A program made the position numbers and the translations under genes. A stretch of DNA of 35,307 nucleotides from Candidatus Sulfotelmatobacter sp. (GTDB lineage: Bacteria; Vulcanimicrobiota; Vulcanimicrobiia; Vulcanimicrobiales; Vulcanimicrobiaceae): positions 1 through 35,307 of the forward strand of contig DATJRY010000002.1 of assembly GCA_035504415.1 (NCBI GenBank), read 5' to 3'. This document shows, in pieces, positions 26,939 through 30,793 of the stretch. The notes under the pieces are model-generated. The model ran no database searches, had not been told where the DNA came from, and saw only the letters and a list, made by a program, of their open reading frames with translations. The stretch's first letter is position 1. Each line of letters begins with the position of its first letter.

Positions 26939-28108
26939 CTAGGACTCGTTTTCCGGCGGCTCCCAGGCCCAGCCGAAGCCGTCTTTGGGCGGTGGGGCGC
27001 CGCCCCCGAACGGCGCGTCCTCGTCGAGGTCCTCGTCTTCGCCGGGCAGCGCGAACGGTGCGCCGAACGGCGTCCCCGGCTGCCCCGCCGGGACGGGTGG
27101 CGGGGTCGGGACCGGCGGCGGTTTGGGCGCCGGCGGTGCCTTGGGCGGCGGCGTCGGCTTGCCCGCCGCCGGTGTGGACGCGGGCGCGGCGGGCTGCTCC
27201 TGGCGTAGGGTGGACAGCGGGAAACCGGTGAACGGCTCGTCGGTCGCTTGCACGATCGACTCGGGCGAGATCGTGCGCGGCGGCGGCAGCGTGCGCTGCG
27301 GCGGCGCCGCGGCGATGGCCGGTGCGGCCGGCGGTGGCGCCGGCGGCGCGGGCGGTACGAGCTCCACGCCCGGGCGGAACGGCTCGACCGCGCCCTGCGG
27401 CGGCACCTCGCCGGCTCCCGTGCCGACCAGCACGATGCGCGAGAGCGGCAGCAGCTGCGCGTCGGGCCGCGCCGCCAGGTCGCGCAGCTCGTCGAGATAC
27501 GACTCGGGCATCTCTTCGATCGCCATCGCCTCGAGCACGAGGTCGACGGTCTGCGCGACCGCGTGCTTGGGCGGGATGCGGGTGAACGTCAGCAGCGACT
27601 GCCAGACGTCGCCTTTGACCAGCGCCATCAGCTTGCGCCAGTAGTCGATCGGCTGATAGGCCTCGAACAGTCCCGCCTCGCGCTTCGCGCGCCCGTAGAG
27701 CGCGGCGATGCGGCGGCCGAGCGGGTCGGCCGGCGGCGAGGGTTCGATCAGCACCACCCGCTTGGCGACCCGCGCCAGCTCGGTGAGCACCTGGCCGTGG
27801 AAGCCGGGATCGATCTCGTGCAGGTAGTGCATCGCGACGGCCGCGTCGTAGGCGGCCTCGCCGGCCGGAATCATCGTCGCGCTGCCGCGGATCGCGCCGG
27901 CGCCCAGCTTCTCGACGCGCGTCAACGTCTCGTCGTCGGCGCTCAGCACGTCGGCTTTGACGCCGATCTCGAGCGCGCGGGCGATCCAGGCGCCGTCGTT
28001 CGGCAGGCCCAGGAACAGCACGCGCTCGCCCGAGCGCAGCGCCATCGCGTCCCAGATCTGCTCGTCGATGCGGTAGGACTCGCGCTGAAAATCAGAGGGA
28101 TTGGTCAT
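26939..28108 (-). CDS. Methyltransferase-like protein with long Pro-rich C-terminal tail
   Basis: The 389-residue protein has an N-terminal class I SAM-methyltransferase-like Rossmann domain. GERVLFLGLPNDGAWIARALE stands at the place of motif I but with a degenerate Gly pattern. DVLSADDETL then resembles the acidic motif II, and YDAAVAMHYLHEIDPG motif IV. Residues about 235-389 are low complexity: repeated Pro/Ala with APPAPPPAAP-like and PPPVPTPPPVPAG runs and an acidic end. This is likely disordered and could be an interaction or tether region. Whether SAM is bound is uncertain. The start ATG (28108) comes right after the 3' end of tRNA-Leu, with no room for a conventional leader; ATG at codon 22 is an alternative. 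Function is unknown. Confidence 0.75.
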   Translation of the reverse strand: MTNPSDFQRESYRIDEQIWDAMALRSGERVLFLGLPNDGAWIARALEIGVKADVLSADDETLTRVEKLGAGAIRGSATMIPAGEAAYDAAVAMHYLHEIDPGFHGQVLTELARVAKRVVLIEPSPPADPLGRRIAALYGRAKREAGLFEAYQPIDYWRKLMALVKGDVWQSLLTFTRIPPKHAVAQTVDLVLEAMAIEEMPESYLDELRDLAARPDAQLLPLSRIVLVGTGAGEVPPQGAVEPFRPGVELVPPAPPAPPPAAPAIAAAPPQRTLPPPRTISPESIVQATDEPFTGFPLSTLRQEQPAAPASTPAAGKPTPPPKAPPAPKPPPVPTPPPVPAGQPGTPFGAPFALPGEDEDLDEDAPFGGGAPPPKDGFGWAWEPPENES

Positions 28109-30793
28109 CTAGGGAAGGTGGGACTCGAACCCACATGAGCTCTCGCTCGGTCGCTTTTGAGGCGACTGCGTATACCGTTTCGCCACTTCCCCGTGTACCA
28201 TGCTCCCGGCCCGCGCATTCGCGGCAACCCAGGCGCGCTCCGCTTCGCCGAACCGGCCGGCGGACGATCCGGCCGCCGCGCTCAGGGCATACGTGATGCG
28301 AACCGGCCCCGGGGTCAACGTCAGACGCAACGTACCGTTGGATTGGTGCGGTTCCCAGCGGGCCGCGAGCACCGCCCGCGGCGGCCACGAGACGGCCGTC
28401 GCCTCGCGGCCGTCGGCCGAGGCGACCACCACGCCGCCCCGCTCCGCGTGCAGCTCGACGGGGACGCCCGCGGCCGCGTCCGCCACCGGCTGATCGCCGT
28501 CGTAGGCCAGCCGGCCGGTCAGCGCGTCGAGCACGACGCCGCGTTCGGCCGGCGCCCGCGGGAACGTGTCCTCGCGATCGACCACGACGCGCGCGCCGTG
28601 CGGATCGAGCGCGATCGTGCGCGCGAAACACGCCGGCCCGGTGACCAGGTCCGGCACGCGCAGCCGCGTGTCGACCACGGCGCGCGGGCCGCGCTGCGCG
28701 ATCGTCGCCGCGACGTCACGGTTGAACGTGCCGGCCGGATACGAACGGGTCCACTTGCCGATCCGGTCGGTCGTCGAGGGCGGCGGCGGCACGCTGACGT
28801 CGTCGCGCCACGCGCCGGTCGCGTCGAACGCGTTGACGCCCGTCGCGAGGTCTTCGAGGACCGGACTGCGTCCGCCGCCGCGCGGTACGAGCACGACCCG
28901 CAGGCGGTCGTTCTGCAGCACGACGTCGTCCTGGCCGTCGGCGAACACGTCGGCGTCCCAGGCCAGCGCGGCGTCGGGCGCGACGCTGCGCAGCCCGGCC
29001 AGCGGCACGAGCGCATGCGGCGAGAGCAGGACCGCATCGCGCGAAGCCGACGAGCGCGGCGCCGGCGAGGGCGGCGGAACGTCGCCGGAATCGTCGGGCA
29101 GCGCGACGCGCACGCGGTCGACGACGAGCGTCCCGTCGCGCGCGCCCAGCGCGATCGTCTTTCCGTCGACGGGATCGTGCACGCTAATCGGCGCGTCGCC
29201 CCAATTGACGGCGACGGTGAACGACGCGTCGGGACCGACCAAGTGCGCAAGCGTCACGTCGCCCAGGCCGGCGACCGGCGCGAAGGGCACGGCGTCGACG
29301 ATACGGCCGCCCGCGCGCGCGTAGGCGCGCAGGCGCGCGCGCGAGAGCGCGTCGAGCTGCGTTCCGGGTGGAACGACCAGCCACGGCTGCGCGTGCAGCG
29401 CCGTCCCACCGAGCGCGTGCGGATCGACCAGCGCGCAGGAGATCGCGGCGGCGCGGCACGCGTCGAGCGCGCGTTGCGTCGCCGCCAGGGCCGAGGCGAT
29501 CGCGGCGTTGCCGGCCGGTCCCGGCGCGGACGCCGCCGGCCAGACGATCGCGCCCGCGGTCACGCGGTGCGTGCGCTCGAGCAGCGGCCCGTAGCGGCGC
29601 ACCAGCGCGGCGAACCGCGCCGTCGGTGCGTACCGCGGCGAGGCGCCCGGGGGCGGATACGGGATCGCCGCGTCCCAGCCGTAGAGCGCGTTCGAGAACG
29701 GTGCCTCCCACCCGAACGGCGCCAGCGTGTCTTGCAGCGGAAAGTCGACGACGCCCTTGACGCCCCACGCCAACAGCTCGTAGAGCGCGAGCGTCGTGTT
29801 GGTCGGCGAGACGCTGCGCGGCAGCGGGTCCTCGGGCTGCGCCAGCCAGCCGGCTTGGAACTCGCTCATGGCGAGTGGCACGTGCGGTTGCGTCGTCAAC
29901 AGCGCCGTCGCGACGTCGAGCTCGCTGCGGTCGTGCGCGCCGATCTGCGCCGCGTCGCTCTGATACCAGTTGCCCATCGCCCAGACCGGTGACGAGGCCG
30001 GCACCTTCATGTCGTAAGTGTTGATGAACAGCGGCGTGCGCGGCCCGACGACCGCGCGCACCTGCGCGGCCAGCCAGCCGAGATATGCGTGCAGGTGCGG
30101 CGCCGGGTAGGTGTCGTTGTCGATGTAGGCGCCTTGATCGTCGTCGAGCTGGACCGCCAGCACGCGGTCCGCGACCGGGCGAAACTCGGCCAGCGCGCGG
30201 CGCAGCCAGCGCGCGGCGTAGCGGCGGTGCGTCGCGTTCGCCAGCCATTGCGCGGCGGCGGCGTCGCTGTGCGCGTTCTGCAGCGTCGCGGTCGCCGGAT
30301 AGCGCCCTTCGAGCACGTCGTGGAGCGGCATTCCGTACGCGGGCCGCCGCAACAGCCACGCCGGATAGCCGCCGTTGCGCCACTCGTTGCGGATCACCGG
30401 CCCCGGCCGCACGATGAAGTAGAAGCCCAGTTCCTTGCCCAGCCGCAGCACCTCGCGCAGGTTGCGGCGCGGATCGGTGTGGCCGTCGAAGTCGAACGCG
30501 CCGTCGGCCGGCTCGTGCCAGTTCCACGGCACGTACAGGTCGAGCGTGTTCGCGCCGAGCGCGCGCAGCGCCAGCATCGCCGTGCGCCACGACGCGACCG
30601 GCAAGCGCTCGTAGAAGAACGCGCCGCCGAAGAAGAAGAACGGCCGGCCGTCGACCTGCAGCTGCGGCGCACCGTCGCGCTCGACCAGCACCGCGTGGTC
30701 GAACTGCGGCTGCGCGGGCGGGGGCGCCGCGCCGCCCGTCAGCAGGGCGAGCACGAGCGCGATGGCACGCCGCAGGCCCGCCCGATCGGTCAT
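28109..30793 (-). CDS. GH35-type beta-galactosidase-like glycoside hydrolase, secreted; frame runs through tRNA-Leu
   Basis: The open frame is 894 residues with a signal peptide (about 1-28). The TIM-barrel domain matches GH35: GGAFFYERLPVASWR, then NTLDLYVPWNWHEP (about 82-95) and FYFIVRPGPVIRNEWRNGG (about 124-142). The predicted nucleophile is Glu311 in MSEFQAGWL. At the acid/base motif, usually QVENEYG, the sequence is QLDDDQG, so Asp219 stands where Glu is expected. C-terminal beta domains follow (about 400-860). It would cleave galactosides outside the cytoplasm, or may have altered activity. No stop occurs before the tRNA gene: residues 868-894 are encoded by tRNA-Leu and the TAG (28111-28109) uses its last two bases. 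The native C-terminus may therefore be lost or differ. The ATG at 30793 is 20 nt from the divergent esterase. Confidence 0.85.
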   Translation of the reverse strand: MTDRAGLRRAIALVLALLTGGAAPPPAQPQFDHAVLVERDGAPQLQVDGRPFFFFGGAFFYERLPVASWRTAMLALRALGANTLDLYVPWNWHEPADGAFDFDGHTDPRRNLREVLRLGKELGFYFIVRPGPVIRNEWRNGGYPAWLLRRPAYGMPLHDVLEGRYPATATLQNAHSDAAAAQWLANATHRRYAARWLRRALAEFRPVADRVLAVQLDDDQGAYIDNDTYPAPHLHAYLGWLAAQVRAVVGPRTPLFINTYDMKVPASSPVWAMGNWYQSDAAQIGAHDRSELDVATALLTTQPHVPLAMSEFQAGWLAQPEDPLPRSVSPTNTTLALYELLAWGVKGVVDFPLQDTLAPFGWEAPFSNALYGWDAAIPYPPPGASPRYAPTARFAALVRRYGPLLERTHRVTAGAIVWPAASAPGPAGNAAIASALAATQRALDACRAAAISCALVDPHALGGTALHAQPWLVVPPGTQLDALSRARLRAYARAGGRIVDAVPFAPVAGLGDVTLAHLVGPDASFTVAVNWGDAPISVHDPVDGKTIALGARDGTLVVDRVRVALPDDSGDVPPPSPAPRSSASRDAVLLSPHALVPLAGLRSVAPDAALAWDADVFADGQDDVVLQNDRLRVVLVPRGGGRSPVLEDLATGVNAFDATGAWRDDVSVPPPPSTTDRIGKWTRSYPAGTFNRDVAATIAQRGPRAVVDTRLRVPDLVTGPACFARTIALDPHGARVVVDREDTFPRAPAERGVVLDALTGRLAYDGDQPVADAAAGVPVELHAERGGVVVASADGREATAVSWPPRAVLAARWEPHQSNGTLRLTLTPGPVRITYALSAAAGSSAGRFGEAERAWVAANARAGSMVHGEVAKRYTQSPQKRPSESSCGFESHLP
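28110..28192 (-). tRNA. tRNA-Leu (anticodon CAA)
   Basis: The 83-nt class II tRNA reads 5'-GGGGAAG from 28192. The anticodon stem GTCGC/GCGAC encloses the loop CTCAAAA, giving anticodon CAA (reads UUG). The long variable arm folds as GAGC-GAGA-GCTC, as expected for leucine. The T arm is GTGGG-TTCGAGT-CCCAC. The acceptor stem closes with CTTCCCT and discriminator A (28110). The 3' CCA is not encoded. It lies within the open frame of the GH35 gene and its 3' end is 1 nt from the methyltransferase ATG, all on the same strand. Confidence 0.95.

Follow-up and report, generated by a model that had tools for sequence, protein, structure and literature searches.

The 35,307-nucleotide stretch of DNA analysed here (the window) is part of a metagenome-assembled genome of an uncultured soil bacterium of Ca. 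Eremiobacterota, designated G000 in the comparisons below. Its minus strand carries, at positions 28109–30793, an open reading frame of 894 residues for a β-galactosidase-like glycoside hydrolase of family 35 (GH35; Pfam PF01301, 7.8e-32), and the 3′ end of this frame is shared with an 83-nt tRNA-Leu(CAA) gene on the same strand (28110–28192), in which CCA is not encoded. ARAGORN and Infernal (RF00005; 56.5 bits, E = 2.5e-11) agree on the tRNA and its strand, and its sequence has a single match in the G000 assembly. The original prediction, that the GH35 frame has no stop until the TAG at 28111–28109 and so passes through all of tRNA-Leu(CAA), is borne out by the list of reading frames and by both tRNA searches. 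Its finer points are likewise correct in the sequence: the tRNA begins at a codon boundary and supplies the last 27 codons of GH35 (GEVAKRYTQSPQKRPSESSCGFESHLP), while the T and A of the stop codon double as tRNA position 72, the last pairing base, and discriminator 73. Comparison of the tails of related proteins places the end of the conserved GH35 C-terminus near AEAERAWVAAN, approximately 8–10 codons 5′ of the tRNA. Two further features flank the tRNA on the minus strand. The ATG of the next reading frame (389 residues, 26939–28108) stands at 28108, immediately 3′ of the GH35 stop (TAGATG), and a promoter-like two-block element, AGCGGAGCGCGCCTGGGTTGCCGCGAAT, occupies GH35 codons at 28217–28244, as judged from a sequence profile, family-wide conservation and a bias in Asn codons.

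The overlap of the GH35 frame and the tRNA gene is real and unusual. It is not in itself improbable that a frame should stay open across a tRNA, because 64 of the 147 sense frames among the ARAGORN tRNA predictions of G000 are open, and tRNA-Leu(CAA) is free of stops in all three of its own. The G000 tRNAs were surveyed with a home-made codon-model gene finder, in which start positions are approximate; tRNA-Leu(CAA) was the only believable tRNA into which a strongly coding gene on the same strand runs from the 5′ side, and no other believable tRNA in the same survey had a strongly coding start so close on its 3′ side. The remaining overlaps in the survey table are weakly scored or cover the 3′ part of the tRNA, and the other tRNAs of the genome show normal spacing. 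A Leu(gag) call lying wholly within a coding sequence was discarded as an ARAGORN false positive, absent from the Infernal output.

Gaps and overlaps in related genomes

A family search of 99 genomes from 38 genera found GH35 directly upstream of tRNA-Leu(CAA) in most of them, its stop lying 0–12 nt 5′ of the tRNA, which supports the first of two alternatives in the original prediction, namely that the enzyme here lost its original stop. Among 74 loci of the family where a GH35 homologue precedes the tRNA, the median gap between stop and tRNA is 7.5 nt; 46 of these loci have a gap of at most 12 nt, overlaps included, and at 16 the GH35 frame and the tRNA overlap. Within the genus of G000, the order GH35, tRNA-Leu(CAA), methyltransferase-like reading frame (the 389-residue frame described above) is found. 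The tRNA occurs without GH35 directly upstream in five genomes of the family (G013, G052, G055, G063 and G096).

Full passage through the tRNA is seen in G000, G001, G003, G005 and G010, all of one genus, and in G036. In G009 and G093 the GH35 frame stops within the tRNA, at +18; six of the seven species of genus g33 have the stop at +56, likewise within the tRNA, and the seventh (G084) at −6; in G036 and G093 the evidence for the frame is weaker, with homology ending 50–64 nt before the tRNA. Sister species of the read-through congeners keep a stop 2–7 nt before the tRNA. AU tests on trees of GH35 alone and of GH35 together with the methyltransferase-like protein, built from HSP-stitched alignments, rejected a single clade for the five read-through congeners (p = 0.0013 and 0.0010), placing at least two origins of the overlap inside this genus; genus-level counting (these origins together with g33, G009, G093 and G036) gives about six origins. 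The stop was thus lost repeatedly where almost no spacer exists. Conservation of the C-terminal extension is uninformative, because the function of the tRNA already fixes this sequence; to judge from the comparison, nothing suggests that the read-through is maintained.

A promoter-like element upstream of the tRNA

Comparison of upstream regions revealed GCGAAT approximately 20–30 nt before the tRNA in many genera, as the second part of a two-block element with fixed spacing (AAGG, then 14–15 nt, then GCGAAT). GCGAA occurs within 45 nt of the tRNA at 56 of 74 loci, compared with a mean of 6.3 and a maximum of 14 in shuffled sequences, and the element is absent from 18 of the 74. When the loci are aligned on GCGAAT, with one weight per genus, the five columns of the other block (A, A/G, G, G, at −20 to −16 from GCGAAT) hold 4.51 bits, whereas the null reached at most 1.18. 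The window has GCGAAT at 28217–28222 and a CGGAGC block at about 28237–28242, and the site as a whole (28217–28244) scores 11.6 bits with a profile built from other genera.

Protein conservation does not explain the element, because it lies beyond the GH35 stop in 7 genera; in 17 it is in frame within GH35, mostly in one codon phase and in another in g29 and g31. Codon choice at the site is also distinctive. Relative to the rest of the same genes, the rare Asn codon AAT is over-used there in this genus (6/10 versus 13/92, p = 0.0026) and outside it (18/23 versus 57/170, p = 5e-5), by Fisher tests that treat related sequences as independent and hence give p values that are too small. When this genus was left out of the profile, the scan located sites upstream of six other G000 tRNAs, compared with 0.55 in shuffles; in G061 and G035 the same profile found one and two tRNA sites, where 0.2 were expected in each, a weak support. 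Sites of at least 6 bits number 176 in approximately 1 Mb of strand, just 7 of them near tRNAs.

Upstream of the tRNA, a scan for sigma-70 promoters found no site above the level of shuffled sequences in the window or the genus, and AAGG-N14/15-GCGAAT does not match the sigma-70 consensus. The tRNA-Leu(CAA) gene of the sister family f2, with no GH35 upstream, has a TACAAT box about 12 nt before it. Conserved, fixed in position, independent of frame and common to other tRNAs, the element has the marks of a promoter belonging to the tRNA, and tRNA-Leu(CAA) is probably served by a promoter of its own, not of the sigma-70 type, inside GH35. The original prediction had named a separate promoter and terminator, isolating the tRNA transcript, as evidence that would speak against it; part of this, the promoter, now has a counterpart in the promoter-like element.

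A search with the pattern CAAGGA-N14..16-GCGAAT matched tRNA-Leu with the 15-nt spacer only, and the matches with a spacer of 14 look like background. In genus g12 (L253, L255 and L250), CAAGGAGCG...GCGAAT is kept in several genomes, at a place that is neither 5′ of a tRNA nor 5′ of any Rfam family.

The downstream reading frame

The reading frame that follows the tRNA has orthologues in 8 congeners and is called methyltransferase-like on sequence motifs only, searches of Pfam and PDB having returned nothing. The N-terminal part is coding: codon positions 1, 2 and 3 show 36, 15 and 108 differences between pairs of sequences, and no further ATG, GTG or TTG was found 5′ of its conserved part. 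The start lies 0–1 nt from the 3′ end of the tRNA in G000, G002, G003, G004, G007 and G010. In G007 the A of the ATG is the discriminator base of the tRNA, so that tRNA maturation and use of the start codon would be mutually exclusive. The acceptor stem upstream of the ATG contains no purine-rich Shine-Dalgarno sequence, and such sequences are used weakly throughout the genome (22% versus 11% in the control). From this arrangement we infer that the frame is possibly translated from a leaderless or an unprocessed transcript. A match to an RNase Z-like gene fell below the curated cut-off.

The 3′ side of the tRNA is arranged differently in some other genomes. In G001 (L045, 3862–4951), approximately 1.1 kb with a lipoprotein-like reading frame separates the tRNA from the methyltransferase-like frame. 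In G009 (L064, after 5629), a terminator-like hairpin with a run of T residues lies directly 3′ of the tRNA, and the methyltransferase-like frame was not found in that genome.

Discussion

The explanation that we consider probable is that the GH35 stop codon has drifted beside an ordinary tRNA gene with a nested promoter of its own, and that the resulting overlap is tolerated, not used. tRNA-Leu(CAA) would be transcribed independently, from the promoter-like element located within the 3′ end of GH35 or shortly beyond it; such nesting would keep GH35 and the tRNA together across the family and leave a spacer of a few bases. A GH35 stop in that spacer would have been lost in several lineages, this one included, after which the frame would have continued through the tRNA, which by chance has no stop in this phase, until it met the next one. 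A nested promoter would thus account at once for stable gene order, little spacer and harmless stop loss, the last being tolerable because the tRNA probably carries its own promoter inside GH35. The tRNA would come mostly from its own transcript, with the GH35 transcript running through just occasionally, and the C-terminal extension, or the nonstop end left after RNase P cleavage, would be tolerated rather than used. The observations from which this explanation starts are the overlap, its recurrence, the short spacers of stop-keeping relatives and the frame-independent conservation of the element; that the element is a promoter, and that both genes are mostly transcribed separately, seems the best reading of these sequence patterns, and the patchiness of the overlap suggests that it is close to neutral.

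Parts of this arrangement resemble known systems. As in other stop-loss extensions at the C-terminus, close relatives have their stops 0–12 nt before the point of extension; what differs is that the neighbouring sequence here is a tRNA gene, which is not free to evolve a new stop. The position of the promoter-like element in GH35 codons recalls promoters nested in the 3′ end of an upstream coding sequence, except that the element is not sigma-70-like.

A more elaborate reading likens tRNA-Leu(CAA) to the tRNA punctuation of mitochondria. RNase P would free a GH35 message, nonstop in five species, RNase Z would free a leaderless methyltransferase-like message beginning at its AUG, and all of this would happen downstream of a tRNA promoter belonging to a hitherto undescribed class, AAGG-N14/15-GCGAAT, which several of the family's tRNAs would share. 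The likeness is in the tRNA lying between two reading frames with zero or one base on its 3′ side, a spacing at which excision of the tRNA would determine where the mRNAs begin and end and would produce a leaderless message. In contrast to mitochondria, this is a bacterial genome in which a single locus is so arranged and the other tRNAs are normally spaced, and the processing is putative; we regard this composite reading as rather unlikely. A search of open-access papers found no direct precedent for a nonstop mRNA made by RNase P, or for a leaderless mRNA arising from tRNA processing, which does not prove that none exists.

The locus may also be viewed as a classical mRNA-tRNA operon, in which processing of GH35 transcripts would be the sole source of the tRNA and the element would not be a promoter. 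The spacer, very short or absent, and the gene order kept across the family would fit such an operon, as would the failure of the sigma-70 scan in this genus. In E. coli secG-leuU the reading frame is not known to run through the tRNA, whereas here it does, and the protein gene here seems to contain the promoter-like element; the likeness to that operon seen in the sequence is one of adjacency only, with a protein gene directly 5′ of a same-strand tRNA-Leu. The secG-leuU mRNA-tRNA transcript is reportedly processed by RNase P at the junction, in work attributed to Mohanty and Kushner from 2008. An operon leaves unexplained a frame-independent element conserved at a fixed distance and common to other tRNAs, and the five genomes in which the tRNA has no GH35 directly upstream; moreover, if an essential tRNA with one gene copy depended on a sugar hydrolase gene, its regulation would presumably be difficult. 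This makes an operon unlikely in our estimation, and the conserved element suggests instead that most of the tRNA comes from a separate transcript.

The second alternative in the original prediction was that the overlap is used in regulation: RNase P cleavage would yield a nonstop GH35 mRNA, and tmRNA tagging, or competition between ribosomes and tRNA folding, would limit the amount of GH35. This idea presupposes that the tRNA is excised from the GH35 transcript. The frame is indeed open through the tRNA, a tmRNA gene is present in G000 (C17:290618–290976), and overlaps, full or partial, appear repeatedly across several genera, so that GH35 transcripts that run through could be putative tmRNA substrates. 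However, the read-through is patchy, with sister species keeping their stops and at least two separate origins within the genus; there is no sign that selection keeps the frame, in a stretch whose sequence is already set by what the tRNA itself requires, and the tRNA probably has its own promoter. The regulatory claim is left without support, and the independence of read-through from abutment of the next reading frame, described below, counts against it too. A regulatory or tmRNA-related role has no positive support, and we hold it to be distinctly unlikely; the overlap is probably not a regulatory device. In G005, a second, weaker tmRNA match (C10:62037–62338) scored above the Rfam cut-off.

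Translational coupling, in which ribosomes that complete GH35 at the 3′ end of the tRNA start again at the adjoining ATG, might give the read-through another purpose. The GH35 stop directly adjoins the start in G000 (TAGATG) and overlaps it in G003 and G010 (ATGA), and the downstream ATG is without a Shine-Dalgarno sequence in a genome that uses them weakly. Yet the ATG adjoins the tRNA in the stop-keeping G002, G004 and G007 as well, and G001 and G005 read through although the methyltransferase-like frame starts approximately 1.1 kb and 90 nt further on, respectively. An abutting start is thus found in three of five read-through species and in three of four stop-keeping species with the methyltransferase-like frame; because abutment and read-through are not associated, coupling is disfavoured as the reason for the read-through and seems to us very unlikely.

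An artefact of sequencing, assembly or binning, or a decaying GH35 pseudogene, might be suspected in a window taken from a metagenome-assembled genome, but is scarcely credible when the same passage occurs in separate assemblies of five species of one genus, which also excludes the base-call error that the original prediction had named as its possible refutation, and when the 894-residue frame is intact with its GH35 match.

Gene callers normally forbid a coding sequence over a tRNA, so that such overlaps escape notice; the one described here is real, recurs across the family and is probably tolerated. No direct precedent for a same-strand overlap of coding sequence and tRNA in bacteria was found among open-access papers, which does not establish that there is none. 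The element, as a candidate second class of tRNA promoter in Ca. Eremiobacterota, is directly testable and perhaps more useful than the overlap, and the G000 tRNAs may possibly be served by two promoter classes. GGCAGG is enriched upstream of G000 tRNAs (8 versus 0.63), a hexamer chosen post hoc from many. Sites resembling GGCAGG or AAGG-N14/15-GCGAAT lie 13–56 nt 5′ of the Pro(cgg), Gln(ttg), Gln(ctg) and Asn tRNAs of G000, and also of its Met, Leu(tag), Arg(acg) and Glu(ttc) tRNAs. A separate set of tRNAs in the same genome, Ile, Val(gac) and Ala(cgc), has clear TTGACA-N17-TANANT-like promoters.
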